Below, one piece after another: positions 20,934-50,725 of a stretch of 51,154 nucleotides of DNA (position 1 is its first letter; every line of letters begins with the position of its first letter). The stretch is from Candidatus Poribacteria bacterium. Its GTDB lineage: Bacteria > Poribacteria > WGA-4E > WGA-3G. The stretch covers positions 1 to 51,154 of the forward strand of contig JAJDWI010000159.1 of NCBI GenBank assembly GCA_022825665.1, given 5' to 3'. The translations under genes were made by a program, and so were the position numbers. The notes below the pieces were generated by a model. The model saw nothing but the letters and a program-made list of their open reading frames with translations, did no database searches and was not told where the DNA came from.

Positions 20934-22370
20934 TCATGGAAGTGGTGCTATAAATTTATGTTGTTTGTTGAATTCGTCAGCGTTAATTTCCGCAATTACT
21001 TGTGCTTTCTTGAATTGCTCTACTACAGTTGATTTAAATGCTTTAAAACTATTTCCATCAATCATTTTCATACCATGGGCGTAAATGCTCTGATTTCGAG
21101 CTTCAATTTGACTACGAAACTTGTCCCATTCAAGGTCTTTGACAATCTCATCATTTAATGCATGTAATACAAAGTATCCATCAATTAATCCGATTGGCGA
21201 AGGAAGTTTAGATCTATCCGAATCTTTATAGACTTCTTTTTGTTTGTTTATATACTTATGGAACAGTTCCTCTTCATCAAAATTAGAATAATCCGGTTTC
21301 CGGGTCTTAATTTCGTGCGTGTTAAGACGTTGTTGTCCTATCCATTCAAGAAGTCTATATAGTATAAGACATGCTATATCGCGTTTTCCTTGTGACTCAC
21401 GACGGAGTGCATTGTGATAGAGCGTGAATGCAAAATGAAATCCATTAGGTGATTCAAGGGCAAGATCTTGATCTTTTAGGAATGTCAATAAACATTCTAA
21501 TGCTATCTCTTGTTGTTTAAGATGATCCTGTGCCAAATGAAGTTGTGACAGGCCCGTTAATCTTGAATACTGTTCAAGTATTTCTAACAGTTGAGTGATG
21601 TAGTTTCTTGCTTTTCCAATGTCAAGGTTATCCCAGGCTTCATAAGCTGCACATAGGGATCCGTATGCGTTATATACAACAGTTTGATTAGGATCACCGA
21701 CTTCTTTTTCAAGTTGATTAAATATTCGTTGGGCACCTGTATAATCATGTCTGTTATAAATGTCTCGTGCCTTTTCAACTTCCAAATTACCGAATACGGT
21801 GTATGGATTATCTAATAGACTCAGAAATTCGGTGCATGGTTCCGGTTTCCCTTGCGTAAATTTCTTATTATCCACGTAAAAGATGTCAGCTCCGAGTGCA
21901 GCTCCAGCCATCGCCGCACCACCAACCATAGATTTTTTACCTCCTGTGATATCCACGGCTATATTCTCTGGACGCTTCCATTCATCGTAGAGTGTCATTA
22001 TTGCTTCATAAACATCTACAGTACTGCTACCGTCTATTTTACGTTTGTGAAGCTTGTCAAACCCATATTGAGTTTCATCTTGAATTCGGGATAGTAATTT
22101 CTCTGTCTCTGGTGTGTAAAGCAAACCGACCCGATCCGGTTTGATGGCAAGGATGGAAAGTATAAGCGGCTCAGGCGAGTAACCCAGTGGTAATATGAGT
22201 CCATCATATTTTTTTGGTTGGAGATTCTTTTCGTCATTTATGAATGCTTTTTTGACATACGGGAAAATGTGCTCATCATAGAATTTAGATGCATCTGCTT
22301 TCTCTGCGGCACTGTTATATTCCATATTCTTCCATTTTTCTACAAGTTCATAAAATTCGGATTCTTCCAT
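20934..22370 (-). CDS. TIGR02710-family CARF-HEPN ancillary protein
   Basis: The 478-residue protein matches the CRISPR-associated TIGR02710 family. An N-terminal CARF domain contains DGLILPLGYSPEPLILS and the signature AVDITGGKKSMVGGAAMAGA near residues 138-157, followed by IFYVDNKKF. The helical C-terminal half ends in a HEPN motif, R425-N-Q-S-I-Y-A-H432 (R-X6-H). A cOA-stimulated RNase role is predicted. GGAGA precedes the ATG. It lies 2 bp after the stop of the HEPN-like gene, so the two are tightly coupled. Confidence 0.85.
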   Translation of the reverse strand: MEESEFYELVEKWKNMEYNSAAEKADASKFYDEHIFPYVKKAFINDEKNLQPKKYDGLILPLGYSPEPLILSILAIKPDRVGLLYTPETEKLLSRIQDETQYGFDKLHKRKIDGSSTVDVYEAIMTLYDEWKRPENIAVDITGGKKSMVGGAAMAGAALGADIFYVDNKKFTQGKPEPCTEFLSLLDNPYTVFGNLEVEKARDIYNRHDYTGAQRIFNQLEKEVGDPNQTVVYNAYGSLCAAYEAWDNLDIGKARNYITQLLEILEQYSRLTGLSQLHLAQDHLKQQEIALECLLTFLKDQDLALESPNGFHFAFTLYHNALRRESQGKRDIACLILYRLLEWIGQQRLNTHEIKTRKPDYSNFDEEELFHKYINKQKEVYKDSDRSKLPSPIGLIDGYFVLHALNDEIVKDLEWDKFRSQIEARNQSIYAHGMKMIDGNSFKAFKSTVVEQFKKAQVIAEINADEFNKQHKFIAPLP

Positions 22371-22372
22371 GT

Positions 22373-23590
22373 TTATGTCTCCTTTTGGTTTTTATCCTCT
22401 TTTTTTGACTTAGTTCCCCAAGTTACTAATTCCTCTTTTGAAACAAGGTTCGGTTCTATGCCGGTCGGATTGGTACGAGAGTGATAATAGAATTCTGTGA
22501 AAGTGGAATCAACAAAATCAGCATATTCATAATCTGTAAGGAAGATAGTTTCACCTATATCAACATCTGCAATAATGCGTCGAACACCATACTGATCAAC
22601 AGTATAAGAATGCAGGACAATTACTTTTGGATAAATTTCATTTTCAGAAATTGAGTCAATGAACTTATTAAAAAATTCGATCATTCTTTGAACCATCCTT
22701 TTCTCAGGTGGGAAAGGTTGGTTATCATTCTTGTAAACTCTGCCAACAGAGACCCAATTACTTTTCCATTCTTTTCTAGTAGCGTCATCCATATCGTTAA
22801 AATTGAAATTTGCCTTCTTCACATTGCCTTCCCATTTAACTTCCTCTTCTCTTCCTGGGTGACTAACTATGTTTCGGTATAATGTGAACATACCAATTTC
22901 AGCAATCTGGCTTTTATTTAAAGGCACTTCACGGCGAAAATGATTATCACAATAACTCGTAAGTATGCTGTGTCTTCTTATAATTCTCATGAAATTTCTC
23001 ATAAGTAAGAAATGATCTCCTATTTGTCGTCTTAAATCTTGATAATCGTCAAGAAGCACCTTAAATGCATTGCCTAAATCAACTTTATTTTCGCATTCAT
23101 AATCATATACGTCGGAATCCTTTTTAATATACTTAGACAATGTATAATGATAAAAAAGGAATATTTCACGCAGCAAGTCTTGCATAGCTTGGTCTATATG
23201 ATTTAGTTTTTTAGATTCTAAACACTGTTTAATCTTAGATCTGATTTGAGAGAAACCAACAGGTTTGACTTTCTTTTTAAAGCCAAAATTATCTAACAAA
23301 TTCTCGGCAAGAACAGAATCTTCCGGCTTTTCATTGAATTTAGGTAAATTGTAGTCGCAATTCTGATATACCTCATACAAATCATAAAAGCAATTAATTA
23401 GGACTTCCTGTGGACTGCGTGTTTTGATGAATTCTTTTAGCAGGTCGTTCTCGTCTTCTGATCTATATTTAGGAAGAGCAAACTTGATTTCATCAAAGTT
23501 GATATGAACCTGATTATGAAGTACAAATTTCTCCAATTCGTCATGTGGATTTCTATTATTTTTTCTTGCCCATTCATTTCTGTAATTCAT
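22373..23590 (-). CDS. Unknown operon protein with HEPN-like R-X4-H motif
   Basis: The protein is about 405 residues, mostly charged and helical. I do not recognise the family. A segment near residue 240 reads LYRNIVSHPG, giving R-N-x3-H, the spacing of a HEPN RNase active site. The preceding residues (SQIAEIGMF) would form the expected helix. No CARF domain is apparent; the C-terminal 90 residues look alpha/beta (VIVLHSYTVDQYG). Two ATGs overlap at the start; I prefer 23590, because 23593 is only 3 nt from GGAGG. It is embedded in the type III operon, 2 bp before the TIGR02710-type gene. That fits an effector or effector partner. Confidence 0.6.
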   Translation of the reverse strand: MNYRNEWARKNNRNPHDELEKFVLHNQVHINFDEIKFALPKYRSEDENDLLKEFIKTRSPQEVLINCFYDLYEVYQNCDYNLPKFNEKPEDSVLAENLLDNFGFKKKVKPVGFSQIRSKIKQCLESKKLNHIDQAMQDLLREIFLFYHYTLSKYIKKDSDVYDYECENKVDLGNAFKVLLDDYQDLRRQIGDHFLLMRNFMRIIRRHSILTSYCDNHFRREVPLNKSQIAEIGMFTLYRNIVSHPGREEEVKWEGNVKKANFNFNDMDDATRKEWKSNWVSVGRVYKNDNQPFPPEKRMVQRMIEFFNKFIDSISENEIYPKVIVLHSYTVDQYGVRRIIADVDIGETIFLTDYEYADFVDSTFTEFYYHSRTNPTGIEPNLVSKEELVTWGTKSKKEDKNQKET

Positions 23591-23618
23591 CATGCACCTC
23601 CAAAATTGAAAATGCTGA

Positions 23619-24239
23619 CTAAGGTACGACCCTGTTTACCTGTCCATTCTCATTAACACCAAGCACCCTCAACTTCACCTGTGCACCAATAGCACCCGGA
23701 TAATAAGGTCTTTCAAAGACCAACTCCTCTTTCTCATCAGTAGTCAGTTGGACGGTAATCTTAAATCCATCCTTCTTCAAAATAGTTGCATTCACTCTAT
23801 CCCCAACCTTATACTTCGGCTTGGTTTTTTCTTTTGGCAAGAGTGACGATTTCGGTTCAGATTCTGGTGGCTTCTGCTGTGGTTGCTGCGGACGTTGTTC
23901 CTCTACGGCACGTTTGGGCTCTACTCGGTAATAACGCATCAACCGCAAACTCCAACTCAGTATCAGTAAAAGTTCTTTGGTGTCTTCTATGCCGTGCAGA
24001 TGTTTTTCAATTGCCTCTTGAATATTGTGATAAAATCGTTGTGTTTGTCGGCTTCGGATGAGAGCGTTACGGGTGTTTGACAAACGTTGAACTAAGGATG
24101 TCAATTTTGCTTTCATATCATTTTCCTGCTTGTTCCGCCGCAGAAAAGCGATAACTTTCCCTAACTCATTCGGATCGGTACCCCAGTCAACTAAATCAAA
24201 AGCAACGTTATGAGCAATTGTCCACTGTTTTTTTTCCAT
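23619..24239 (-). CDS. Unknown operon protein, helical domain plus S1-like domain
   Basis: The 206-residue protein has three parts. Residues about 1-110 are helical (AHNVAFDLVDWGTDPNELGK ... SWSLRLMRYYRV). Residues about 111-140 are a Pro/Gln/Glu linker. Residues about 141-206 look like a small beta-barrel (KYKVGDRVNATILKKDG ... VNRVVP), similar to S1/OB-type RNA-binding domains. I recall similar helical N termini near cyanobacterial type III loci but cannot verify this. It lies 12 bp after a Cas7-like gene and has GGAGG before the ATG. A role as an RNA-binding accessory subunit is inference. Confidence 0.6.
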   Translation of the reverse strand: MEKKQWTIAHNVAFDLVDWGTDPNELGKVIAFLRRNKQENDMKAKLTSLVQRLSNTRNALIRSRQTQRFYHNIQEAIEKHLHGIEDTKELLLILSWSLRLMRYYRVEPKRAVEEQRPQQPQQKPPESEPKSSLLPKEKTKPKYKVGDRVNATILKKDGFKITVQLTTDEKEELVFERPYYPGAIGAQVKLRVLGVNENGQVNRVVP

Positions 24240-24251
24240 TGCATACCTCCA

Positions 24252-25226
24252 TTAGTATAACCCAGTAGGGCAGTTGCGGTCATTTGGGTATTTGAGGATT
24301 TCCGCGAGTTGGGACAATAAATCTTGCTGGATGAGACTATCCGTTTCAGCAGCCGCTATACACATCTGGATCCACGTTGCCATGTCGTCACCTGCCTTTA
24401 CGGCATCTTGGGCAACATCCCAGTTCAAGTAGCGGGAACGAGTCTGTTCCTGAACCTGTATCTCATCAATTTGGATATCGATTGAACCGAAACAAACTGG
24501 TTTCGCACCACCTATTTTGAGTTTGAACGAATGTTGTGGGTGATGTCCTAATGCCGTAAAGAGTAGTCCCCATTCAGACTGTGTGAGATTATCCACTTGG
24601 AGAACTAAACTAAATGTTGAATCTTCTTGACAAGCTTCAACAGGCGTGCTACCTGTAGCCACTTCTCCGTGCTTGTAAAACTTGCGTCCCGGAACATCTC
24701 GCATTCTTCTTTGACCGCGTCCAGGGGCATAGAGTTCTGGAACATGTTCTGTCTTGATGTCTCCTGTTGTTTTCGGTGCGTCCTGAATGGAAATATTCCC
24801 CTGAAAACCCATCGCACCAAACATCCTGCACGCCACACACAAGTTGTCTTTCTGTCTGCACTCAGCAAATCCTTTCGGCACTGCACGACGCACTTGAGAG
24901 GAAACTTTACTGACGCAGCTTCCAGAGATGGCTTCAACGACACTCCGGACTGCCCCCTTAAGTGAACTTCCGGGAAGGACGATGTTACCACCAGTTTTCA
25001 CTGCTGTCTTAATGAGTTCTACATCATCACCTATATCTATAATGCCACTGCCGATATGTATTGGAGAGAGTGCCTGAATCGTACCACGAATCTGACCTGA
25101 GATGTGATTTGAGTGATATTTATCATGTCCGGTAGGTCTATTTCTGTTGACACGTTCTGGTAACGGCACAAAAGCAAAAGGTTTAGGTGCAGCTTGTTCT
25201 TCTCGCCCGCGTTGATATTGTCTCAT
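24252..25226 (-). CDS. Cas7-like RAMP protein (Csm3/Csm5 type)
   Basis: The 324-residue RAMP-superfamily protein contains VLPGSSLKGAVRSVVEA, the canonical Cas7 helix after a glycine-rich loop, and CVACRMFGAMG, a Cys motif shared with the other Cas7 proteins here. An Asp at about residue 68 (GDDVELIK) precedes PGSSLKG at about the distance of the cleavage Asp of Csm3. This subunit may therefore cut target RNA; that is an alignment-by-eye inference. The N-terminal 40 residues are an unusual charged extension. AGGAGA precedes the ATG. It lies 4 bp after csx19 and is probably a backbone subunit of the III-D-like effector. Confidence 0.8.
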   Translation of the reverse strand: MRQYQRGREEQAAPKPFAFVPLPERVNRNRPTGHDKYHSNHISGQIRGTIQALSPIHIGSGIIDIGDDVELIKTAVKTGGNIVLPGSSLKGAVRSVVEAISGSCVSKVSSQVRRAVPKGFAECRQKDNLCVACRMFGAMGFQGNISIQDAPKTTGDIKTEHVPELYAPGRGQRRMRDVPGRKFYKHGEVATGSTPVEACQEDSTFSLVLQVDNLTQSEWGLLFTALGHHPQHSFKLKIGGAKPVCFGSIDIQIDEIQVQEQTRSRYLNWDVAQDAVKAGDDMATWIQMCIAAAETDSLIQQDLLSQLAEILKYPNDRNCPTGLY

Positions 25227-25230
25227 AATT

Positions 25231-25740
25231 TTAGTCTCCTGTTGTCGGTATTGTTGTCGGTACGAATTTGGTGTATCGTGTAAAACGGATCATTTGTGAG
25301 TTACGTTCTTTGTATTGGATTACCTTGACACAGGGATGTTTGCACCAATCCATCGGATAGTCCAGTTCACGCGGGATACGTGTGTCTCGCCAAGGTTCCG
25401 TTTCACCACCACCGAGTAGATGTCCGTTCTGTGGTTTCGTTGTTGTCCAATCGCCAAGCTGCGTGAACCCGTTTGGTACTTCTTCTACTTCTGCGAGCCA
25501 TAGCAACGCATACCCACCTATGTTCTTCTGCCAACGGAGTTCCCCCTGACTGCCGAACAACCTGCCATGTGTGAACTGCTCAATAGTCGTTGTGTCTGGT
25601 GTGCCTTGCGTCCAATTGGTGATGTCATCGGGTTTCTGGAGTAAATAATATTTCGGATCGCCGAATGGGAGACCTGTCAGTTGTTCATTGAGTTCCGACA
25701 CGTCAGACACTTGTGATGTTGCTACTATTCCTTTTCCCAT
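25231..25740 (-). CDS. csx19: Csx19-like (TIGR03984-type) III-D subunit
   Basis: The protein is 169 residues from ATG 25740, which directly follows the TAG stop of the upstream Cas7 gene and has GAGAGGA upstream. The frame extends further upstream without a better start. A central segment (FTHGRLFGSQGELRWQKN) and later ALLWLAEVEE resemble the TIGR03984/Csx19 proteins typical of type III-D loci. In those systems Csx19 is a subunit of the effector complex near the Cas10/Cas5 end. Its size and position next to Csx10 and Cas7 proteins support the call. No catalytic motif is visible. Confidence 0.65.
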   Translation of the reverse strand: MGKGIVATSQVSDVSELNEQLTGLPFGDPKYYLLQKPDDITNWTQGTPDTTTIEQFTHGRLFGSQGELRWQKNIGGYALLWLAEVEEVPNGFTQLGDWTTTKPQNGHLLGGGETEPWRDTRIPRELDYPMDWCKHPCVKVIQYKERNSQMIRFTRYTKFVPTTIPTTGD

Positions 25741-25741
25741 A

Positions 25742-26674
25742 CTACTGTTCCTCTCCATCGACCATTTTGCTCCAATTGCTAACACATTCACGCCAGAGTT
25801 CTGTTATGTGAGTCTCATCTTTAAATGTCAATGTAGTACCGATTCCAAACGCATCCGTTTTTGCTTCAACTCCGTCTACATTGAAGGTATCAGAAGTAGG
25901 AAATCCGTAAGCGTCAGCATCCTTGATAAGTTTCCCCGCACCTGCGACGACGTTTGTTCCAAATGAGTCAACTGGATTTCCCAGCATTCGGACTTTATCA
26001 TCTTCCACAACTGCTGTTGGGTAGTGGATTTGGACTTTATTGACTTTCATATTTACCTGTCCTAATCCGCGAGACTTTGCAAAACCGATACCGATACGTT
26101 GTTCGTCAAAATCACGAATTGCGAGTGCGATGAGGGCAAGTTGTGCCGTTGTGAAGTTCTTTAGTTGCATCTTGGTAGTAAACGCTCCATCTGTCATCAC
26201 CTGAAAATTAAACAAAGCTCCACCTACTGCGGAACCGTAGATACGATCAATCGCAACACCGTTGCGTTCCTCTAACTTTATTTCTGATGGATCAACCGGA
26301 TATGCGTCAGCAATATTGGCACGCGCTGAGATGTTTGTGCTACCGAAGATTTGACATATTGTGCAGGTTTTCTTGTAAAGTGAGGCACTGTTTTTCTCTT
26401 CCAGTTTTTTACACTCTGAGTTTCGACTCAACGGATCGCAGGTTGTTACCTTACCACCAACTGTCCGCACAATCCGTTCACAATGCGCGCGGATAGCACC
26501 TTTCAAAGAGGAACCGGGAAGATAAACGCTTCTATCGCCTCCGTGATATGTCTCAACGAACTCCATATCAGGCTTGGTAGGGTCTGCCCCTTGGTCGCTT
26601 GCTTTGATGAGTAGCGGTCCCACAGGAGAAATTGTTATGTCTATTTTCGCTTGATTAACCATCCGTTTGTGCAT
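25742..26674 (-). CDS. Csm3-like Cas7 backbone protein
   Basis: The 310-residue protein has VYLPGSSLKGAIRAHCE, the four-Cys pattern C...C...CTICQIFGS, and the glycine-rich RAMP loop KSRGLGQVNM near residue 210. Asp36 (PDMEFVE) aligns by eye with the Csm3 target-RNA cleavage Asp. A C-terminal extension of about 90 residues contains GAGKLIKDADAYGFP. The start overlaps the preceding csm3-like gene by 20 bp and has GGAGG at an ideal distance. It is predicted to be a crRNA-binding, target-cutting backbone subunit of the III-D-like complex. Confidence 0.85.
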   Translation of the reverse strand: MHKRMVNQAKIDITISPVGPLLIKASDQGADPTKPDMEFVETYHGGDRSVYLPGSSLKGAIRAHCERIVRTVGGKVTTCDPLSRNSECKKLEEKNSASLYKKTCTICQIFGSTNISARANIADAYPVDPSEIKLEERNGVAIDRIYGSAVGGALFNFQVMTDGAFTTKMQLKNFTTAQLALIALAIRDFDEQRIGIGFAKSRGLGQVNMKVNKVQIHYPTAVVEDDKVRMLGNPVDSFGTNVVAGAGKLIKDADAYGFPTSDTFNVDGVEAKTDAFGIGTTLTFKDETHITELWRECVSNWSKMVDGEEQ

Positions 26675-27485
26675 CTATTTCCTCCAATTGCGTTTTGACT
26701 TTATCCTTAAATGCCTGGACCCAAGCGTCCCAGTTTGCCTTTTCGCCTGTATAGTCCTCTGTGAGATATTCCATTATCTTTTTTCTGTTGATGTAGTCTG
26801 CAGCATTGAGCGAAAGCTTGATTACACCGAGTCCACGACTACTTGCACCACCGATAGTCAAGTCGCCTTTCTCAAAAGCGGATATTCCCAAGTATAGCAT
26901 ACCGAGTTGCCAATCTTTTGCGTTGTCAACGATTGCCTGAAATTCAAACGGGGTGCCTGCGGGGACGACTTCAAAATCGTAGAGATGCCCTGTGACTGAT
27001 GTTTCCGTATCACGATCAATTGCCACGCCGTCTCTGTGTTGATATTGACCGAACCACTGATCTTCCTCAACGTATAGGTCTCTTATCTGAAGTTTTGAGG
27101 CATACCACAGTGAACCGAAGAGTTGACACACCCAACAGGTTTTGCTAAGAAGTTTTGCAGTATATTTATCATCATTCCATTTGTTATCATCACGTTTATC
27201 GCGGAGTTTTTTCAACTTCTCTCTTTTAATGCACTGTTCGTCATTGTTTGTTGGGTTGCAGACGACATTTATGTCCTTTGTAAAACTCCGTAGGATGCTT
27301 TCTATGTATGACCTTAGCACCCCTTTGAAACTGGAGCCGGGGATATACGGAGCCCCTGCTGCATCTCGCACAACAGGTAGGTCTGAACCGACAACAGCAG
27401 TGGAACGTCCTGCACCAACACGGATCGCTGTTTGTGTTTCCACCTTGCCCTTTAGATTGAGTCGGGATTGGAATTTGTCAAACAT
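26655..27485 (-). CDS. csm3: Csm3-like Cas7 backbone protein
   Basis: The 276-residue protein is the clearest Csm3 homologue. It shows SDLPVVRDAAG followed by APYIPGSSFKGVLRSY, with Asp35 at the Csm3 catalytic position. It also has CWVCQLFGSLW, the conserved GVAIDRDTETSV segment, and the RAMP glycine loop ASSRGLGVIKL. A charged insertion (KREKLKKLRDKRDD) extends the Cys-rich region. Its ATG overlaps the stop of the small-subunit gene (TAATG). It is predicted to bind crRNA and cleave target RNA at regular intervals. Confidence 0.9.
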   Translation of the reverse strand: MFDKFQSRLNLKGKVETQTAIRVGAGRSTAVVGSDLPVVRDAAGAPYIPGSSFKGVLRSYIESILRSFTKDINVVCNPTNNDEQCIKREKLKKLRDKRDDNKWNDDKYTAKLLSKTCWVCQLFGSLWYASKLQIRDLYVEEDQWFGQYQHRDGVAIDRDTETSVTGHLYDFEVVPAGTPFEFQAIVDNAKDWQLGMLYLGISAFEKGDLTIGGASSRGLGVIKLSLNAADYINRKKIMEYLTEDYTGEKANWDAWVQAFKDKVKTQLEEIDAQTDG

Positions 27486-27961
27486 TAGTTATTACCCCCA
27501 ACTTTTGCTAAATAGGTCTGATACCGAGATAGATTACCTAAGTAAAGCTGCATAAGTCGTAGGTGGACTTTCTGAATTTGGGCTTTACCTGACTCTGAAT
27601 CTGGGTCTTCACCGACTGTGATGACAATTCCCTTCGCATGTTTCGCTAAAGATTCAATTTCTTCAACTAATGCAACTGCGAAGGTTGTCTTGCCGTTACC
27701 CGTATCGCTCCACATTCGATTGGCACCGCTTCTACCAAGTTGATAACGGATATAGTTCTTGGTGACTTCAATACCACTTCCAGGGTCTGTTGCAACGTTC
27801 AGCACATTGCGGAAAGGAGATTTTTCCTTAACACTTTCAAGGTTATAACTTTTCGACAATTTCTGCATCTTTGGAATAATGTTTTCCATCTGCTTGCTAA
27901 TTTCCTGTTCTAACTTTAGATTTGTCTGTCTGTCAGTTGTGTCTTTATCTGTTTGGCTCAT
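27485..27961 (-). CDS. csm2: Csm2/Cas11-like small subunit
   Basis: From ATG 27961 the protein has 158 residues. That ATG overlaps the stop of the Cas7-Csx10 gene (ATGA at 27958-27961) and has AGGAGG upstream, which decides the start. It is helical, and the segment NYIRYQLGRSGANRMW near the middle is reminiscent of the conserved helix of Csm2. Position between cas7/csx10 and csm3, as well as size, fit Cas11. Cas11 lines the target-RNA channel in type III complexes. Sequence similarity to Csm2 is weak, so the name depends mainly on context. Confidence 0.7.
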   Translation of the reverse strand: MSQTDKDTTDRQTNLKLEQEISKQMENIIPKMQKLSKSYNLESVKEKSPFRNVLNVATDPGSGIEVTKNYIRYQLGRSGANRMWSDTGNGKTTFAVALVEEIESLAKHAKGIVITVGEDPDSESGKAQIQKVHLRLMQLYLGNLSRYQTYLAKVGGNN

Positions 27962-29868
27962 TCTATGTCCTCCTTGTTTTTGTTTAGTTTTTCTCGTGTG
28001 TGAAGGTGGAACGGGTCGCAAATTGTTATCTGTCCGTATCCCTCTTCACGACGGTTACCGATGCCGGTGTCTTCAAGTCCTTGTAGTGCCGGTATCCACG
28101 CGTCAATGTCCGATGTGTGAAACACAAAGACACTGCCCATATTGGTTACGAGTTCTGTATCTTTAGGCAGTCCCCACACAGCGTTCCATCCTCCCGCATA
28201 TCCATAACTTGCGAAACTTCTGACAAGGGTCAGTTCTGTATCACAGCGCGTCATATCCTGCAGCATCTGTGCGGTGAGAACCATCGTCCGTTGCCACCCA
28301 TCCGATGCTGTCAAAATCGCCTCTGATTGTAGGTTAACAGTGAAATAATCCCCTTTACACTCACCGATGTCGGTATTCGGTAGACTCGCATAAGCCTGCC
28401 ACAAGGTCTTAAATTTGCCATTGAAGTGTGTGATCCGTTTATTAACGGGTTTCGGAGGTTTCTTGTTCTCCACTGTGATGCTGACCTGTCCAAGCCCGCG
28501 CGAACTACCACCACCCAATCGGATAACCTTTTGCTGTAAAGTTTGGGCAACTTTGTCCACTAAAACCGATGGAACTCGGACTGAGCCGTGTAAAACCACT
28601 TTCTTTCCCTTTACACTCTCTTCTGATTCGCTATTCTTTGTTTTCAGAATAACAGGGTCAATCGCATTGAGATGATAGAGTAGACCTTCCTCAGCGACTT
28701 TTCGCTGTCGGTTAATAGCAACGCGCGTGAGCAGTCGGGTGTTGAGACGTTTCTCTTTATGAGAACCATTTTTCACCTCATAGAACCCGCTCTGTGCTTC
28801 TATTCGTCCACCACATTGCGGACAATTCGGTTGGTACATCCAGCCTGCTTTTTCAGAAACTATTCTCTCTAAGAGCGTATCAAAGATGCCATGTTTTCCA
28901 TCAGCAATAAACCCGGCGAAATCCTTGCAACTAACGGCAGTTGCGGGTAAAACCTCTGTTCCGGGAGTACAGTTTCGGAAGATACTCGCATCGTCTTCTG
29001 TGAAGATTTTACGGAATTCAGCATCTGGTTTTCTATTCTCTAATTCTGTCAAGAGTGCGTTTGCAACCGCCCCACGTATCAAACCACCCCGAATGTAATT
29101 CAGGGCTTCAGAGGCTTGTCCAGTCGGTTTGCGTCCACCTGTGAGAATTGGCGATTTCAAAGTAACCTTTAGCGATAATTCAGTGAAACCATCTGCATTG
29201 ATTTCTATCGGTTTAGCCGTATGCGTATCTGGTGTGTGATCTTGTTTCGTAATGCTAATCCATCCAAGTCCGCGTGTTTTGCCTGAGCCGATAGCGTGGA
29301 TATATTTCAATCCTGCATTTAGGAGTTCAATCTGTTCCTCTGTGATGTCCTTGCTGAGTGATACATCTCCAGAGAATTCAAATTTAGCGTTGGGGATGCT
29401 GGTTTCGGTAAAATAGAGACGTTGATCTTCTGCAACTCTGCGATTGCGATTGATCGTCACACCGCTTCGAATTGCAGTTGTTTGTAACTCAGGATCTGTT
29501 TTATGGATAAGGTCACTGATAAATATGTTTGATTCCGCTTTAGGAGACCCGAAAATCTGACAGATAATACAGTAGTCATCTACCATCGCATCAGTGTTTT
29601 GATTGTGAATGTCATCCTTTTTGTGAGGGCACATATTGTCGGCGCGCGGTGCATTGCAAACAAAGTGTCTCTCACTGCGTTTAATGGCTTCACATGCGTG
29701 TCGCCAGATACCTTTTAGTGTTGATGCTGGAATGTATAGTTTGCCATCTGTAGTTTTTATAGTCGCTTTATCAGCACCTGTGTCGCTGGAGCCGCTATCT
29801 CCTATACAGAGTGCGGTGTCAATTGTTGCTGTAATTTTCCAGTGTTTGTTCGTTGTTTGTGCGTTCAA
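27958..29868 (-). CDS. csx10: Cas7-Csx10 (Cas5-like) fusion protein
   Basis: The 636-residue protein carries two RAMP modules. Residues 1 to about 215 are Cas7-like: Asp33 at the cleavage-Asp position, LYIPASTLKGIWRHACE, a Cys cluster ending CIICQIFGSP, and the glycine loop SGKTRGLGWISI. Residues about 225-636 resemble Csx10: SPILTGGRKPTGQ, YIRGGLIRGAVANALL, a CPQCGG zinc knuckle, AINRQRKVAEEGLLY, and the loop GGGSSRGLGQVSI. The start is TTG 29868 with GAGGA upstream. Csx10 normally acts as the Cas5-type subunit at the crRNA 5' end. The fusion recalls the Cas7-Cas5-Cas11 protein of type III-D variants, but Cas11 is separate here. Confidence 0.8.
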   Translation of the reverse strand: MNAQTTNKHWKITATIDTALCIGDSGSSDTGADKATIKTTDGKLYIPASTLKGIWRHACEAIKRSERHFVCNAPRADNMCPHKKDDIHNQNTDAMVDDYCIICQIFGSPKAESNIFISDLIHKTDPELQTTAIRSGVTINRNRRVAEDQRLYFTETSIPNAKFEFSGDVSLSKDITEEQIELLNAGLKYIHAIGSGKTRGLGWISITKQDHTPDTHTAKPIEINADGFTELSLKVTLKSPILTGGRKPTGQASEALNYIRGGLIRGAVANALLTELENRKPDAEFRKIFTEDDASIFRNCTPGTEVLPATAVSCKDFAGFIADGKHGIFDTLLERIVSEKAGWMYQPNCPQCGGRIEAQSGFYEVKNGSHKEKRLNTRLLTRVAINRQRKVAEEGLLYHLNAIDPVILKTKNSESEESVKGKKVVLHGSVRVPSVLVDKVAQTLQQKVIRLGGGSSRGLGQVSITVENKKPPKPVNKRITHFNGKFKTLWQAYASLPNTDIGECKGDYFTVNLQSEAILTASDGWQRTMVLTAQMLQDMTRCDTELTLVRSFASYGYAGGWNAVWGLPKDTELVTNMGSVFVFHTSDIDAWIPALQGLEDTGIGNRREEGYGQITICDPFHLHTREKLNKNKEDIE

Positions 29869-30025
29869 TATCGTTGTCCTCTGTTGTATATAGTCAATCG
29901 AGGTTCGGAAACCTCGCCAACAATTTATCTGCTCCTCTTTGCTAAAAAGGTCACGGGTTCATGATTCGTTGCTGTTCAAGTGCCTCTACCTTCTGAGTCA
30001 GGATGTCTAATTTTCTTTCGTATTC

Positions 30026-30355
30026 CTAGTTTCTTCGATTTTGCACAATAACTATGATTTGAGGTATACCGACAGCAACGACTATCAGTGCAATTAACCC
30101 GTAAGTAACATTAGAAGAATGTGCAACACGTTTATCAACACTATCAATCTGTTTCTCAACGGTCTGTATCTGTTTCTCAACAAGCTGAAAACGCTGATCA
30201 ACATTTGCAAATTTGATGTCAATATATTCCTTCAGTCGTGTTTCAGACTCTACTACCATGCTTTTGATGGCATTAAGATCTTCGGTGGACAACTCACTAT
30301 ATACGGGTAAGACGCTGAAAGAAAAGAGGAATGTTAGGCATAGTTTTTTGAACAT
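30026..30355 (-). CDS. Small membrane coiled-coil protein, C-terminal tail cut by TAG
   Basis: The protein has about 109 residues from ATG 30355 (GGAGA upstream). It has a signal-like N terminus (FLFSFSVLPVYS), a coiled-coil region (LSTEDLNAIKSMVVESETR ... VEKQIDSVDKRV) and a transmembrane segment (YGLIALIVVAVGIPQIIVIV). After NRRN a TAG stop (30026-30028) interrupts the frame. The same frame then continues with EYERKLDILTQKVEALEQQ to a TGA at 29951. That tail matches the C-terminal coiled coil of the paralogue at 44942-45370. The gene is therefore either freshly truncated or read through. It lies between cas10 (18 bp upstream) and the Cas7-Csx10 gene. Its function is unknown. Confidence 0.75.
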   Translation of the reverse strand: MFKKLCLTFLFSFSVLPVYSELSTEDLNAIKSMVVESETRLKEYIDIKFANVDQRFQLVEKQIQTVEKQIDSVDKRVAHSSNVTYGLIALIVVAVGIPQIIVIVQNRRN

Positions 30356-30379
30356 TTTCAAGTCTCCGTTGTGTGTAGT

Positions 30380-32923
30380 TTATTCTTTTTTTTGTTTGTT
30401 AATGAACTCATAAGCCTCAATTATATCTAAAAGCAGTGTTTCAAATTCTTTATCATCATTTTTGTGCGTTTTTAACTTTTGATACCACGGACCTAAACTA
30501 CTATTGTCGGGGACACCGTGCCAGTTCCGTTCAATTTGGTCTTTGAGTAGTCTCTCATCATCGCTATTAAGTCGGCTTCGGAAGTAAAGATAATCAAGTG
30601 TTGATGTTGCGCGCCCAAGTTTCAGGGACTCCAGTCGTTGATAGAGTTGGGAACGTGGGAAACCATCCTGTTTAAAGGCTTGAATGGTCTTTATGAATCC
30701 TGATAGTTCGTGCAATGTATAAGGACGCATCGTGAGTGCGTTCTCCGTTTCAGTCTTGTAAGCATTCTTACGAAAATCTCCAAGATTGCTTGTAATCATA
30801 GAAACGGATTTGAGGATGAGAAAATCAACAGTACCACCCCGATAACCGCCAGCCTCTTTCATCAAGGTTTTGGCTCTACGCTTTGCAGATTTCAGGAGGC
30901 TCGCTGCGAGATGTTCTAAGAACGCAACGGGTGTGTGTTCTTCCGCAATGACAAAACCGAGGGATAAGCTGAAAACAGGTTGCATCTTTTGTGACTCTTT
31001 TACCCATTTTTCTGATAGGTAACGTTGTGATTTTTTCACTTCCTTCTTTTTCGAAGCATCCCATTCCGCTTGGCTATTAAATTCATCATCAAAACTTTTG
31101 CCGATTGCGTGAACGACTTCAAAAGCCTTACTTCCCGGCACAATCAGGAGCAGGTCATCCCCTCCGATACTGACAATTTCAAATGGAAGGACATTCTCTT
31201 TGGTAGGTTTAAGATGTTCGTAAAGTGCGTTGAATGCTGCCTTTTGTAGTGCAACAAATACGCGTTCCGAGAACTGCCGATACTGTGCTGGCGATGCGAT
31301 GTTCTCCAAATACGCACCCATATTGTTACCATCAGCATAGATAAAGGCGATGTAATTCTCAGGATCGCTTGCTTTTGCGATGACTTCAAGGTCTTGAGGA
31401 CCAGCAATATCCGCAAGTGTGGAGTCTGCGTTGAGGTATTTTTCGGTTTTACCAAAAGTCTCCAAGTATTTCTTGAATATTGAACTCCAATCTTCAAAAC
31501 GCCAACCACCTTCTGCTTCTGCTTTGGGACTTGCAGGTTTCCAACCAGAAAGAGCTTTCAGATAACGGTCAATACCGTATTGATCCTCAGACTTATCGGT
31601 TTCCTTCTTAGTAATCCGTCCTGTGATATATTTCCTGGCGCAAGCTTCACATAGTTGTCTCAGCGGTTCACGGAAAAGGGCTGTGCGTCTCTCGCAGCTT
31701 TCACATCGGAGTTGATACGGGTCAGTCTCAACGTGTGCCGGTAGGTCGCGTTGCGTCCCCCGATTTGGTGTTGCATTCCCTTCACGCCGTTTCATCTGTG
31801 CACCTGCCAACTTGCTTGTCAACTCACCGAAACACTTGCGAGTAATAAAATCTTTGTCCTCGCTACCGTAGTAGTTTTCCATAAGTTTTGCAGTGTCAGG
31901 TTTTTTACAAGCTTCTTGAAAATCCTCTATCCAGAACTGAGTTGGATTCAGCCCGTATTGCAATTCAAGCAAATCGAAAGTATCCGCAACAGCAGCACTG
32001 TTCGCAACAAGCGTTTCGTCCGTATAAATTCGTTCAATTTCATCTGCGATGTTGTGGACAACCGATGTCGGTGCAAACGCAAGCGTATTACCGCCAGCAG
32101 CATAGATAATACACTCTGGGGCAGTGATCATAAGTTCTGTACGCTGACGGAACCCATTCCGAATATCTTCGTACCGCTTACTGTCTTGTTTAATTTTTCG
32201 TCCGAAAAGTGCTGGCACATCTTCCAGATTGATACGATCAAGCAACGCACTTGCACCACGAATTTCCGGGAGTTTTGCGGACTCCATAAAGTAGCCTTTT
32301 ATCTTAGTCGCACCACCTAACACCAGTCCTATCTTGCCATCCTGATTGAGATCATGGCTGTCAAGCTGCACGTCTTTGATTTTTATCCGTTCAGAAGCCG
32401 CTGTTTTTGCTAAAAACACGATCTGTTCATGCTTTGTGCCATCTTTATTTGGTTCAATCGGAGAGTCATTACCCCACAATGCCGCGTAAACATCACCAAG
32501 TCCATCACCTTTCCAAGTTGCAGTGAGGGCAGATAGGCGAAGTTTATCTAACGTTTCTATATCGGGTCGGGGTTCAATGTCGTAAGCCAAGCAGTATGCG
32601 ATTGCAGAGGCGGTAAGGGCATGGTCAGCAACTGTCGCACCGGATAGCGATTTACTCGGCAACCATCGGAAGGGAAGTACGTATTTTTTGTTTTGCCACA
32701 ACGTTTGAAGAGGTGGGACAAGTAGATCAACCACTTGAGTAACACGTTCGGTAATCGTTTGATCTGTCCAGTTTTCAATGTGATTTACTGTTTGTTCTAT
32801 TACGCTGTTCCAATCCTTTTCTGAAATGCCAACTTTGTCTTTAAGTATTAGGTCTGACCAAGGTTTATCATGTATATCTTTAATATCTTCAATCAACTTA
32901 TCTGTTTTCCAATCTCTCACCAT
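30380..32923 (-). CDS. cas10: Cas10 large subunit with GGDD cyclase motif
   Basis: The 847-residue protein is the signature subunit. A zinc knuckle lies at Cys407, Cys410, Cys425 and Cys428. The second palm domain has YADGNNMG at about 530-537 and GGDD at 587-590, predicting cyclic oligoadenylate synthesis. The first palm has the degenerate AAGGNTLAF at about 275-283. In the N-terminal region where HD nucleases normally lie I see only VADHALTASAIA (Asp100-His101) and no H-D doublet, so DNase activity is doubtful. It may belong to the Csx11-type Cas10 proteins, but I cannot separate the subfamilies by eye. It is the first gene of the operon, behind a good sigma70-like promoter. Confidence 0.9.
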   Translation of the reverse strand: MVRDWKTDKLIEDIKDIHDKPWSDLILKDKVGISEKDWNSVIEQTVNHIENWTDQTITERVTQVVDLLVPPLQTLWQNKKYVLPFRWLPSKSLSGATVADHALTASAIAYCLAYDIEPRPDIETLDKLRLSALTATWKGDGLGDVYAALWGNDSPIEPNKDGTKHEQIVFLAKTAASERIKIKDVQLDSHDLNQDGKIGLVLGGATKIKGYFMESAKLPEIRGASALLDRINLEDVPALFGRKIKQDSKRYEDIRNGFRQRTELMITAPECIIYAAGGNTLAFAPTSVVHNIADEIERIYTDETLVANSAAVADTFDLLELQYGLNPTQFWIEDFQEACKKPDTAKLMENYYGSEDKDFITRKCFGELTSKLAGAQMKRREGNATPNRGTQRDLPAHVETDPYQLRCESCERRTALFREPLRQLCEACARKYITGRITKKETDKSEDQYGIDRYLKALSGWKPASPKAEAEGGWRFEDWSSIFKKYLETFGKTEKYLNADSTLADIAGPQDLEVIAKASDPENYIAFIYADGNNMGAYLENIASPAQYRQFSERVFVALQKAAFNALYEHLKPTKENVLPFEIVSIGGDDLLLIVPGSKAFEVVHAIGKSFDDEFNSQAEWDASKKKEVKKSQRYLSEKWVKESQKMQPVFSLSLGFVIAEEHTPVAFLEHLAASLLKSAKRRAKTLMKEAGGYRGGTVDFLILKSVSMITSNLGDFRKNAYKTETENALTMRPYTLHELSGFIKTIQAFKQDGFPRSQLYQRLESLKLGRATSTLDYLYFRSRLNSDDERLLKDQIERNWHGVPDNSSLGPWYQKLKTHKNDDKEFETLLLDIIEAYEFINKQKKE

Positions 32924-45370: not shown

Positions 45371-45471
45371 CTTTATACCATTTCTAAATAATAACTTCTC
45401 ATTAACAAAAAAACGCGTTCGTAGTCGCGCAATTCATTGCGCCTCTTATATTTGGTATTCACTCAAATAAT

Positions 45472-45501
45472 CCTCTAATCGCACCAATTTGGAACGGAGC
45501 A
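45472..45501 (+). promoter_or_regulatory. Degenerate CRISPR repeat in front of cas6
   Basis: This 30-nt segment (CCTCTAATCGCACCAATTTG ...) matches the array repeat at 23 of 30 positions, with 18 of the first 20 conserved. It lies 3 nt before the cas6 ATG (45505) and is in the same orientation as the array repeats. It also covers the expected Shine-Dalgarno region (GGAACGGAGC). Binding of Cas6 or of crRNA here could control cas6 translation. Confidence 0.75.
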
Positions 45502-45504
45502 TTC

Positions 45505-46257
45505 ATGCGAATACAAATCCTTGCCGATGTCCGCAACAGCATCACCATACCCATAAACTACAACCACCTACTCGTCGGAGCAATCTACCGTTTCCTCGCA
45601 GAATCCAACCCAGAATACGCCACCTTCCTCCACGATCAAGGCTACCACGCAGACAAAAAACGATTCAAACTCTTCACCTTCTCACAACTCATGGCAGAAC
45701 GCAGACGCATCCTCGGCACAGAGATACAATTTGGATCAACCTTGACATGGTTCGTCTCCTCACCCGTAGAACAATTCCTATCACATTTTGCCGACACACT
45801 CCTCACCCAAGGCAGACTCGCCATCGGGCAGCACCACCTAAAAATAAGAGACGTGAAAGTCCCGCGTGTGCCACGTTTCCACACTGAAATGGAGTTCCGA
45901 TGTTTCTCTCCCATTGTGATGTCCGCAATACGAGAGAACAACGGACAACCCCGCACCCACTACTGCCTACCCGACGACCCCGAACTCTCCGAACTCATCC
46001 GTCAAAACCTACTCCGCAAACACCAAGCAATCCACGGGCGCGCCCCTCAAAACGACACCCTATCCTTCCGTTTCGACGACAGATATATCCATAGGAAGCA
46101 AGGACGTGTCACTCGACTCGTTGACTTCAAAGGCATCAAAGTGCGAGGGACACTCTGTCCATTTCATGTATCCGGTAGTGTAGCATTAATTCAGGTCGGG
46201 TATGAATGCGGATTTGGCGATAAAAACAGCGCAGGATTCGGAATGGCAGAAGTGTAA
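45505..46257 (+). CDS. cas6: Cas6 CRISPR RNA endoribonuclease
   Basis: The 250-residue protein fits Cas6. The N-terminal ferredoxin-like fold begins RIQILADVRNSITIPINYNH and continues LVGAIYRFLAES. A middle region reads FRCFSPIVMSAIRE. The C-terminal glycine-rich loop is GYECGFGDKNSAGFGMAEV, the strongest Cas6 hallmark. The catalytic residue cannot be assigned by eye. Cas6 cuts pre-crRNA within each repeat, leaving an 8-nt handle, here AUAGAAAC. It is separated from the type III operon by about 12.6 kb and lies 3.0 kb before the array. A repeat-like element sits directly at its translation start. Confidence 0.88.
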   Translation: MRIQILADVRNSITIPINYNHLLVGAIYRFLAESNPEYATFLHDQGYHADKKRFKLFTFSQLMAERRRILGTEIQFGSTLTWFVSSPVEQFLSHFADTLLTQGRLAIGQHHLKIRDVKVPRVPRFHTEMEFRCFSPIVMSAIRENNGQPRTHYCLPDDPELSELIRQNLLRKHQAIHGRAPQNDTLSFRFDDRYIHRKQGRVTRLVDFKGIKVRGTLCPFHVSGSVALIQVGYECGFGDKNSAGFGMAEV

Positions 46258-46544: not shown

Positions 46545-47972
46545 ATGAACGTCCAAAACCGAACCATATTCTCCAGCGACAACCTACCCATCCTGCGTGG
46601 CATAGACACCCAAGCAGTCGACCTCATCTATCTCGACCCACCCTTCAATTCCAACCGCAACTACGCCGCACCCATCGGGAGCAACGCAGCAGGCGCAGCC
46701 TTCAAAGACACATGGACACTCTCCGACGTAGACAACGCATGGCACGGAGAAATCGCTGACCGAGAACCCGCGCTATATCAAGCAATACACGCAGCCGAAC
46801 TCACACACGGCAAAGGCATGAAATCATATCTCATAATGATGGCAGTCCGCTTATTAGAGATGAAACGTGTCCTCAAAAAGACAGGAAGCATATACCTCCA
46901 CTGCGACCCAACCGCAAGCCACTACCTCAAAATGCTCATGGATAGCGTATTCGGCAGGAAAAACTTTCGGAATGAGATTGTATGGCAACGCACCTCAGCC
47001 CATAATGATAGTAATCGCTTTGGCAGGGTTCATGACATAATTCTATCATATAGCAATGGACAAAAAGGGGTATGGAATCCCATTTACACAGAACATAATC
47101 CAGAATACATAGCAAAGTTTTATCGCCACAAAGATGAAAGGGGTAGTTACCGAGTGGGAGATCTAACTGCAGCTGGCGTGAGTCAAGGTGATTCAGGTAA
47201 AGCTTGGCGAGGTGTAGATCCGACTGACGTGGGTAGGCACTGGGCAACACCCGGAAAACAAGCATGGCACGAAGATGTCCACCTCCCTGAAAACTATGAA
47301 AACCTATCGGTACAGGAAAGATTAGAGGCTTTGGATGCTGCAGGTTTGATTTACTGGCCTCCGAGGGGTAGGGTTCCAGGTTTCAAGCGTTATTTATCCA
47401 CATCAAAAGGACGTAGGGTGCATGATGTTATTACCGATATAAACCCACTTTCAGGTAGGTCCAAAGAACGTGTTGGCTACCCCACACAAAAACCCATTGC
47501 ACTCTTAGAACGCATCATCAAAGCCAGTAGCAACAGAGGCGACATCGTATTAGACCCCTTCTGTGGATGTGCCACAACCTGTGTCGCAGCAGAACGCCAC
47601 CAACGCCACTGGATCGGCATCGACATATCACCCAAAGCCGTCGACCTTGTCCGTATCCGATTAGAAAACGAAGTCGGTATGTTCGGAAAAGTCATCCACC
47701 GCACAGACATACCCAAACGCAGCGAAAAACTACCAAACTACCGCACGCACAAACACACACTCTACGGCAAACAAGAAGGTCTATGTAACGGGTGCCAGAC
47801 ACAATTCCCATTTCGGAACATGACCATTGACCACATCGTCCCACAATCCCAAGGCGGCACCGACCACGAGGACAACCTACAACTACTGTGTGGAGCCTGT
47901 AACTCCACAAAAGGGCAAGGCACACAAGCCCAATTAATCTCCCGTCTAAAAACCCAAGGCGTACTCCGTTAA
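46545..47972 (+). CDS. Beta-class DNA methyltransferase with C-terminal HNH domain
   Basis: The 475-residue protein has motif IV DPPF at residues 31-34 and motif I near the C-terminal half (LDPFCGCATTCVAAE). That order, IV before I, marks the beta class of amino-methyltransferases acting on adenine N6 or cytosine N4. A variable target-recognition region lies between (about 150-310). The C terminus (about 414-475) is an HNH-type domain with zinc pairs CNGC (414-417) and CGAC (449-452), the DH pair at 429-430 and Asn444/Asn453. It could be a one-protein restriction-modification enzyme or a methyltransferase with an accessory nuclease. It lies between cas6 and the CRISPR array. Target specificity is unknown. 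Confidence 0.82.
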   Translation: MNVQNRTIFSSDNLPILRGIDTQAVDLIYLDPPFNSNRNYAAPIGSNAAGAAFKDTWTLSDVDNAWHGEIADREPALYQAIHAAELTHGKGMKSYLIMMAVRLLEMKRVLKKTGSIYLHCDPTASHYLKMLMDSVFGRKNFRNEIVWQRTSAHNDSNRFGRVHDIILSYSNGQKGVWNPIYTEHNPEYIAKFYRHKDERGSYRVGDLTAAGVSQGDSGKAWRGVDPTDVGRHWATPGKQAWHEDVHLPENYENLSVQERLEALDAAGLIYWPPRGRVPGFKRYLSTSKGRRVHDVITDINPLSGRSKERVGYPTQKPIALLERIIKASSNRGDIVLDPFCGCATTCVAAERHQRHWIGIDISPKAVDLVRIRLENEVGMFGKVIHRTDIPKRSEKLPNYRTHKHTLYGKQEGLCNGCQTQFPFRNMTIDHIVPQSQGGTDHEDNLQLLCGACNSTKGQGTQAQLISRLKTQGVLR

Positions 47973-48349
47973 CCCACCCGCCTACCCGCACCTCTTACAT
48001 TCGTAGGGGCGAGGTCCCCTCGCCCGCCTCACCCCACCACCAGAACGAAAGGTATCCACACCCCATAAACGTCAATATAAGGAAAAAACCCGTTCGTAGT
48101 CGCGCAATGCATGCCGCCTCGGACATTCACCGGTAGGCGCGCTTTCATAAACCAATGCAGAATGCCAAACGCGCATTCTACCATAAGCGTCAATTTAAGG
48201 AGGAAACGCGTTCGTAGTCGCGCAATTCATTGCGCCTCTTACATTCACCGGTAGGTGCGCTTTCATGAAGATTAATTTATTCTTTCGGTAATATTAAGGT
48301 CCCCAAAACCGGTAGGCGCGCTTTGTAAGCCCGCTCCCTGACAGAAATG

Positions 48350-48616: not shown

Positions 48617-48982
48617 CGTAGGGGCGGGGTCTCCCCGCCTATCTTTATACACCTCCTACATCCGCGTTCGTAGTCGCGCAATTCATTGCGCCTCTTACAT
48701 TACATTCGCGTAGGGGCGGGGTCTCCCCGCCTATTTTTATACACCTCCTACATCCGCGTTCGTAGTCGCGCAATTCATTGCGCCTCTTACATTACATTCG
48801 CGCAAGGGCAAACTCACCCACCCGCATGCCCACACCTTGAACACTCTTGTTCGTAGTCGCGCAATTCATTGCGCCTCTTACATTACATTCGCGCAAGGGC
48901 AAACTCACCCACCCGCATGCCCACACCTTGAACACTCTTGTTCGTAGTCGCGCAATTCATTGCGCCTCTTACATTACATTCG
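48617..48982. repeat. Tandem duplication: two 92-bp units then two 91-bp units
   Basis: Unit A (48617-48708 and 48709-48800) starts CGTAGGGGCGGGGTCTCCCC and differs by one base between copies. Unit B (48801-48891 and 48892-48982) starts CGCAAGGGCAAACTCACCCA and the copies are identical by eye. Both unit types contain the GTTCGTAGTCGCGCAATTCA hairpin repeat. Confidence 0.8.
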
Positions 48983-49071: not shown

Positions 49072-49271
49072 TGAATTCTCGCAATAATTTTGACATAAAA
49101 AGTATTACTATCTGCTAAATTATGGCGATCAACCCAATCCCCACCTATTGCCGTCAACCTCCCAGAGAATTTGCACGATTGGAGGTCGACTGCAAACAAC
49201 CTTAATACTCAAATTTAACTTGACAGCCACCGTAAGGATCCGTTATAATATAAACATCCATTTTGGATACC
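49072..49271 (+). promoter_or_regulatory. CRISPR leader region
   Basis: This AT-rich stretch precedes the first repeat. The word TTGCCGTCAACCTC ends just inside its left border (49058-49071) and recurs at 49148-49161. Just before the array is a small hairpin, ATCCA-TTT-TGGAT, at 49255-49267. The strong promoter at 49220-49249 lies within it. Confidence 0.65.
49220..49249 (+). promoter_or_regulatory. Sigma70-like promoter of the CRISPR array
   Basis: Consensus TTGACA (49220-49225) and TATAAT (49244-49249) are separated by 18 nt. The -10 box ends 22 nt before the first repeat. Transcription is therefore on the plus strand, in agreement with the repeat's 3' end resembling the type III 8-nt crRNA handle. 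Confidence 0.8.
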
Positions 49272-50725
49272 CTTCTAATCGCACCAGTTTGGAATAGAAA
49301 CAGTATAACAGATAATTCCCCTTCATACCACAACACCCCTTCTAATCGCACCAGTTTGGAATAGAAACGATAATTTCATGTCAATGATTGATGAAAGTCC
49401 AGACCTTCTAATCGCACCAGTTTGGAATAGAAACTTCATTGATTGAAATTTTGAAACTTGAAACTATGACTTCTAATCGCACCAGTTTGGAATAGAAACC
49501 AACAGTACCTGCTGTATCTCCATAAACCTGTGAAATCTTCTAATCGCACCAGTTTGGAATAGAAACACCACATTTTGACGCAACACTCGCAACGCTGCTT
49601 TGCCGCTTCTAATCGCACCAGTTTGGAATAGAAACCACGTTGATACTGTTCAAAAAAGGACGTATCGTTTCTCTTCTAATCGCACCAGTTTGGAATAGAA
49701 ACTAATTTTGTCTCCTTGTTAGCGATAATCATCGTCTTCCCTTCTAATCGCACCAGTTTGGAATAGAAACTTTTTTGAACAGTTCGCTTTTTCCACTGCG
49801 GATACCTTCTAATCGCACCAGTTTGGAATAGAAACTTGTCAATTTCATTTTTGATCCCCTTTGTGGGTTGTCTTCTAATCGCACCAGTTTGGAATAGAAA
49901 CTTACCACAACCCAAACGTGGCAATGCAAGCTTTTCACTTCTAATCGCACCAGTTTGGAATAGAAACCTGATTATTATTTATACGTCTTTTCATAAGACG
50001 TATGCCCTTCTAATCGCACCAGTTTGGAATAGAAACATTCTTCAGCATCCCGCAGTATTATGTATATCTTATACATCTTCTAATCGCACCAGTTTGGAAT
50101 AGAAACATAATACTGAAAACAAACAAAATATGACGCATCACTTCCTTCTAATCGCACCAGTTTGGAATAGAAACGCATCCTTTCAATGAAGTAGTCGTAG
50201 TTTGTTAAATTCACTTCTAATCGCACCAGTTTGGAATAGAAACTTGAAAACGACAAAGTGTCATGCAAACCGATTTCAGAAGCTTCTAATCGCACCAGTT
50301 TGGAATAGAAACTAATCATAAGACCACACGATTTCATTCAGAAAATTGTAGCCTTCTAATCGCACCAGTTTGGAATAGAAACTAAGTTCCAATACGTATA
50401 TCCAAATCCGGTATATTGAAATCTTCTAATCGCACCAGTTTGGAATAGAAACCTTTAGTAATGCTCTCAACAGCAATACGTCTTGACTCTGCTTCTAATC
50501 GCACCAGTTTGGAATAGAAACACCCAACTATGCAACCGCACATCATTTATTCCAGCGGAAGCTTCTAATCGCACCAGTTTGGAATAGAAACTGCACCTTT
50601 TCTTTTGTTTTTTTCCTGTTAAGGTTTACTTCTAATCGCACCAGTTTGGAATAGAAACTGCACCTTTTCTTTTGTTTTTTTCCTGTTAAGGTTTACTTCT
50701 AATCGCACCAGTTTGGAATAGAAAC
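49272..50725 (+). CRISPR. CRISPR array, 22 repeats of 30 bp and 21 spacers
   Basis: The repeat starts CTTCTAATCGCACCAGTTTG and ends GAATAGAAAC. By eye all 22 copies are identical, including the last one (50696-50725). Spacers are 35-40 bp. The last 8 nt of the repeat, ATAGAAAC, resemble the common type III/I-B crRNA 5' handle AUUGAAAC, and a consensus promoter lies directly upstream. The last two spacers (50592-50628 and 50659-50695) are identical. The array ends in genomic repeat DNA about 16 bp after the last repeat. cas6 and the methyltransferase-HNH gene lie upstream; cas1 and cas2 are absent from the window. Confidence 0.98.

Follow-up and report, generated by a model that had tools for sequence, protein, structure and literature searches.

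Regulation of cas genes by ectopic CRISPR repeats is known to run through guide RNAs together with effector complexes, for the most part type I Cascade and Cas12a. Autogenous control of endoribonucleases through the 5' UTR of their own mRNA is established for RNase III and RNase E. CreR, one of the closest described systems, reportedly goes back to Liu et al. (Cell Host Microbe, 2023). It is a crRNA-like repressor of cas promoters (PMC12737573) related to CreA (PMC8501985, PMC9458426), and ectopic repeats, though degenerated, are still cut by Cas6 (PMC8501985). Solitary repeat units are also found as Racr RNA anti-CRISPRs, which are encoded by phages as non-coding RNAs (PMC10651486). Here we compare these systems with a solitary repeat-like element that directly precedes cas6 in a 51,154-nucleotide stretch of DNA (contig JAJDWI010000159.1, hereafter the window) from a Candidatus Poribacteria genome, G000. 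The features of the window on which the comparison draws are:

45413..45452 (ends approximate), plus strand: copy of a dispersed genomic repeat, just upstream of the element, at the place of the sister's promoter
45472..45501, plus strand: solitary repeat-like element, 30 nt, repeat positions 1-30, 23/30 match to the array repeat
45472..45493, plus strand: repeat positions 1-22, the segment retained 5' of the predicted Cas6 cut, two changes relative to the array repeat (2, 16)
45494..45501, plus strand: former 8-nt handle, now ACGGAGCA, holding the Shine-Dalgarno ACGGAG, five changes in positions 24-30
45505..46257, plus strand: cas6, 250 aa; TIGR01877 (8e-40), PF01881, PF21350; PDB 5yi6 (1e-29) and 3pkm (1e-19)
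49220..49271, plus strand: promoter in the array leader, TTGACA-18-TATAAT-22-repeat
49272..50725, plus strand: CRISPR array, 22 repeats and 21 spacers
20934..32923, minus strand: type III-D effector operon encoding Cas10, Csx10, Csx7-type RAMPs and a CARF protein

The element (CCTCTAATCGCACCAATTTGGAACGGAGCA) lies on the same strand as the array, whose repeat is CTTCTAATCGCACCAGTTTGGAATAGAAAC, and only TTC separates it from the cas6 ATG (45505). Mismatches to the array repeat are confined to positions 2, 16, 24, 25, 28, 29 and 30, confirming the sequence-only reading, which had reported 23/30 matches (18 of the first 20) in array orientation and a distance of 3 nt to the ATG. That reading had found no other solitary copy by eye, and this holds for the entire genome (4.53 Mb in 170 contigs, 95% complete): a search with a core pattern of 20 specified bases and up to three mismatches returned 23 matches, namely the 22 array copies and the element, which is thus the only non-array repeat copy in G000. 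Nothing was found that would favour a chance resemblance between element and repeat. The element agrees with the core pattern at 20/20 bases as the single non-array match in about 4.5 Mb, the reversed control pattern gave no match in the whole of G000, and the best repeat match in shuffled 150-nt upstream regions averaged 14.6/30 with a maximum of 19. Moreover, the same element precedes cas6 in the sister genome G010 (Candidatus Poribacteria SB0677_bin_25), the Cas6 of which is 92% identical, so that the repeat-like element overlapping the cas6 ribosome binding region is real and chance origin is excluded. A search of Rfam gave no matches.

The cas6 product is full-length and similar to PfCas6 (3pkm, 1e-19). 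Cas6 proteins of this kind bind to an unstructured repeat over its first 12 nt, and cleavage takes place 8 nt from the 3' end (PMC9458426). Applying the 8-nt handle rule places the predicted cut between 45493 and 45494, where the cut-site bases GGA^A are intact. The recognition region, positions 1-12, carries one change (T2C) in G000 and none in G010, and positions 1-23 contain 0-1 change once natural array variants are allowed for, while five of the seven changes fall into positions 24-30; this stretch, part of the crRNA 5' handle, now has the sequence CGGAGCA. Judged by its sequence, the element keeps the part recognised by Cas6 together with the predicted cut site, and only the crRNA handle is lost, replaced by a Shine-Dalgarno. 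GGAACGGAG also forms the Shine-Dalgarno region of cas6 in the element-free relatives G005, G006 and G012, suggesting that repeat and Shine-Dalgarno were fused where they share GGAA.

The reading that we prefer, and to which we give a little under an even chance, is that an ectopic repeat was fused onto the cas6 Shine-Dalgarno and that Cas6 acts on the 5' UTR of its mRNA by binding or cutting, lowering cas6 translation; the fusion, the binding, the cutting, the effect on translation and selection for that effect are what we infer. On this reading, the recognition and cut site of Cas6 would be present intact in the cas6 5' UTR, just before the ribosome-binding site and overlapping it in part. 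Cas6 would bind the element as it binds pre-crRNA, against or over the ribosome-binding site, and would cut between positions 22 and 23 (GGA^A), leaving an mRNA that starts with 5'-ACGGAGCAUUCAUG. Binding, cutting or both would reduce cas6 translation whenever free Cas6 is in excess, rendering Cas6 self-limiting, and the repeats of pre-crRNA would compete for Cas6 and thereby relieve cas6 translation. That the element is a Cas6 site is probable, and regulation of cas6 through it is plausible. The more far-reaching proposal, in which the handle was rebuilt as a Shine-Dalgarno and Cas6 is tuned to the pre-crRNA supply by autogenous control without guide, spacer or Cascade, is put forward tentatively and is possible rather than probable. 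Such an arrangement would resemble the autogenous control of RNase III and RNase E, where an endoribonuclease likewise has a target within the 5' UTR of the mRNA that encodes it; here, by contrast, the enzyme would be Cas6, whose action is proposed from sequence, and the target a CRISPR repeat that was captured. If it is correct, the repeat serves as a direct operator for its own processing enzyme, a simpler feedback that would be open to systems without DNA-binding effectors, for example type III. The literature searched, coverage of which was partial, contained no description of Cas6 acting on its own mRNA via a repeat. A single protein and a single RNA would suffice to put the idea of a Cas6 operator directly to the test.

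Two other roles of the sequence before cas6 were considered and rejected. A hairpin masking the Shine-Dalgarno is predicted with a similar stem in both species, but in this folding of the 5' UTR, which the sequence-only reading had proposed as a check, the energies do not surpass those of shuffled sequences (z -0.1 to 0.5), and the hairpin is not used as evidence. For Cas6 to be extended N-terminally across the element the frame is open, but no common start is located close upstream in G000, and Cas6 homologues start at MRIQ/MRIK.

Repeat-derived RNAs are abundant in such cells, which counts in favour of a crRNA-like RNA pairing with the element and thereby controlling cas6, as the sequence-only reading had suggested. 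The element and the repeat parts of crRNAs, however, are of the same sense and hence identical, not complementary, and comparison of the 21 array spacers with cas6 and its 5' UTR, on both strands, gave no match above background (23/39 at most). Because of the shared sense and the missing spacer match we regard this suggestion as highly improbable.

In G010 a strong promoter-like sequence, TTGACA-17-TAAAAT, ends 21 nt before the element; the corresponding pair in most array leaders of the phylum is TTGACA-18-TATAAT, at a distance of 22 nt from the first repeat. In sequence, the G010 upstream region resembles array leaders only weakly, the geometry being the stronger point. In G000 the leader promoter has been lost; the copy of the dispersed repeat just upstream of the element has its usual CTTACATT changed to CTTATATT, resulting in a weak -10-like TATATT 19 nt before the element, and no consensus sigma-70-like promoter was found before the element. 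As regards the possibility raised earlier that the element is a remnant of a decayed array, G010 shows a leader-like promoter, and no further repeats were found near cas6 in either genome. As to Racr, the position of one repeat just downstream of a promoter is shared by the element of G010, but in G000 only the weak TATATT precedes it, and the element resides in a host on the cas6 mRNA, unlike the phage-encoded non-coding Racr. With the G010 geometry, Cas6 would also release from the cas6 mRNA a small RNA composed of the 5' leader and repeat positions 1-22, about 37 nt long and bound by Cas6 at its 3' end, which might act as a Cas6 sponge. Solitary repeats that bind Cas6f are indeed known from phages (PMC10651486), yet it is in phage genomes that these known examples sit, and we regard a sponge as improbable.

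Relatives of G000 carry units of a CreR-like kind. A two-repeat mini-CRISPR, consisting of two degenerate repeats and one spacer, lies beside cas6 and a type I-B operon in six of them, and a seventh unit was found in G006 and G012:

L104:11443-11537, CreR-like mini-CRISPR, downstream of cas6
L110:9786-9882, CreR-like mini-CRISPR, upstream of cas6
L115:10864-10963, CreR-like mini-CRISPR, downstream of cas6
L120:9811-9902, CreR-like mini-CRISPR, upstream of cas6
L123:9372-9465, CreR-like mini-CRISPR, upstream of cas6
L128:11490-11584, CreR-like mini-CRISPR, downstream of cas6
L077:8326-8423 (G012) and L078 near 8466-8561, minus strand (G006), seventh mini-CRISPR, with a nearly palindromic spacer

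The genes downstream were identified with HMMs as Cas8b1, Cas7, Cas5b and Cas3 in L104 and as Cas7, Cas5b and Cas3 in L110, and the other mini-CRISPR loci have the same gene order as judged by N-terminal sequences. In 6/6 mini-CRISPRs the start of the spacer has a sense match just downstream of the TTGACA/TATAAT promoter that follows the mini-CRISPR, with CCT or CCA (PAM) in front and mismatches recurring about every sixth base; at most 1 in 200 dinucleotide shuffles scores as well. These features make the six units CreR-like, with a type I-B cas promoter as the predicted target. Their second repeats keep positions 1-23 and have lost the handle, like the element before cas6, and second-repeat degeneration follows the same pattern in all seven mini-CRISPRs of relatives (0-2 versus 2-5 changes); a second repeat is needed only for the 3' end of a crRNA. 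Over 23 nt, the second repeat of the mini-CRISPR in G017 and the G000 element are identical. The seventh unit, which is located elsewhere than before cas6, has the same ACGGA change as the element in its first repeat, and no target was found for its spacer; its flanks are about 95% identical between G006 and G012, and it lies upstream of a peptide-deformylase-like and downstream of a TnpB-like gene.

The cas6 element shares with CreR/CreA that it is a degenerate repeat outside an array, beside cas6, in which the nucleotides for Cas6 are kept and the rest is lost, and it belongs to the same lineage and repeat family as the CreR-like units of the relatives. It differs in being a single repeat without spacer or usable handle, placed on the cas6 ribosome-binding site and followed by the cas6 coding sequence, and a guide matching the regulated promoter beside a PAM is present in the six loci but not at the element. 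By the features tested it is not a member of CreR. The mini-CRISPRs with cas-promoter-matching spacers at the cas6/cas8 operons of relatives would agree with the element being half of a crRNA-like RNA that steers an effector to repress the cas6 promoter. However, apart from lacking a second repeat, a spacer and a handle, the element resides in a genome whose only system is the III-D system of the window: no Cas3 and no I-B Cas7 were detected above cut-off in G000 (95% complete), so that Cascade-based CreR repression is unavailable, and promoter repression is not known for III-D complexes. Such a guide function is largely refuted and we consider it very unlikely.

The best origin for the element is an ectopic repeat from a leader-plus-repeat unit, either an array or a CreR-type mini-CRISPR, that appears to have been fused onto the native cas6 GGAACGGAG. 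Given the likeness to the mini-CRISPRs of relatives and the lack of I-B Cas7 and Cas3 in G000, this unit was most likely of CreR-like kind and left on cas6 upon loss of the type I effector, an order of events that we reconstruct from the present-day loci. A type I-G operon is located on another contig of G010, in whose assembly (73% complete) no I-B Cas7 and no III-D Cas10 were found. The association with a III-D-like system that the sequence-only reading had pointed out is seen in G000 only.

Among 85 genomes of the phylum that were searched for the fused form, the element precedes cas6 in G000 and G010 only, while in G006 and G012 it occurs as the first repeat of their mini-CRISPR. The same was observed in 30 inspected cas6 loci (G000 included), where these two have it at the same place, and in 34 cas6 loci of GenBank relatives named Candidatus Poribacteria, inspected with flanks of up to 10 kb, where only the G010 record has it. 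Taking into account that the two sets come partly from the same genomes, about 60 other cas6 loci were checked in all and the element was absent from each of them. Since nearly all cas6-bearing relatives are devoid of it, the element is lineage-specific. It is no general feature of cas6 either, as a cognate repeat was found before cas6 in 0/5 of the unrelated outside controls with arrays (Deferribacter, two Thermus, Aureibacter and Salinibacter, out of six plasmid cas6 loci). Candidates for more decayed homologous elements before cas6 in G016, G007 and G013 gave alignments above shuffles, but were not counted because the three share an upstream coding sequence, the 3' end of which the segment appears to be.

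Between G000 and G010 the cas6 unit is homologous from about 5 bases before the element onwards, homology being lost further upstream. Within the element 28/30 positions are identical, the differences being at positions 2 and 16, whereas 31 of 108 fourfold-degenerate sites in cas6 differ. Compared with these sites, two or fewer differences in 30 positions are unexpected (P=0.003), marginally so if the Shine-Dalgarno part is left out (P=0.046). Measured against other stretches of intergenic DNA common to G000 and G010 (blocks 88-93% identical), the element is not better conserved (P=0.34 at 11% divergence), and constraint beyond background is thus not established. The sequence-only reading had held that missing conservation in orthologous loci with a conserved cas6 would speak against a regulatory role; the element is retained in the sister and missing from nearly all other relatives. 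Autoregulation by Cas6, as that reading had envisaged, remains plausible since the Cas6 part is predicted to be intact and a Shine-Dalgarno stands in place of the handle, but the element it would act through is confined to one lineage.

The main rival to Cas6 autoregulation is that the element is an inert relic: a CreR-type mini-CRISPR or an array would have shrunk to one repeat abutting the start codon after loss of the I-B effector, so that the element does no more than supply the Shine-Dalgarno and, in G010, the promoter as well, and any Cas6 action on it is of no consequence. Owing to the absence from nearly all relatives and the background-level divergence we consider this a serious possibility, almost as likely as autoregulation. 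It accords with the mini-CRISPRs upstream of cas6 in L110, L120 and L123, with a decayed array in G047 (L132), the last of whose four repeats ends 51 nt before the cas6 ATG, and with the missing Cas3 and I-B Cas7 of G000. Against it stands that both species have lost the handle but preserve intact what Cas6 needs of the repeat; furthermore, provided that there is any expression of Cas6, a site left intact in the cas6 5' UTR is expected to serve as its substrate. Even as a relic, the element would illustrate a possible reduction of a CreR-like unit upon loss of a type I effector.

Several observations were made beside these. In G047 the four heavily decayed repeats (L132:9706-9949) raise the possibility that cas6 is co-transcribed with a dying array, and in G016 eight degenerate repeats, most with changed handles (GGAATCAAYRC), lie downstream of cas6 (L105:10949-11450), with parts of the unit duplicated. 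Tandem or partial second copies of cas6 accompany the intact gene in G030 (C125:11094-13852), G018 (C97) and G028 (C30). Within the window, three proteins of the III-D operon (406, 206 and 186 aa; 22373-25791) have no NCBIfam model match, and the last two array spacers (50592-50628 and 50659-50695) are identical, representing a repeat-spacer duplication. Intergenic regions are filled by dispersed repeats of the CGTTCGTAGTCGCGCAATTCATTGCGCCTCTTACATT and CGTAGGGGCGAGGTCCCCTCGCCC types, at positions 45413-45452, 48063-48126, 48180-48244, 48660-48975 and 50950-50990. Between cas6 and the array (46545-47972) a DNA methyltransferase is encoded, the C-terminal HNH region of which weakly resembles the HNH of IscB/Cas9.
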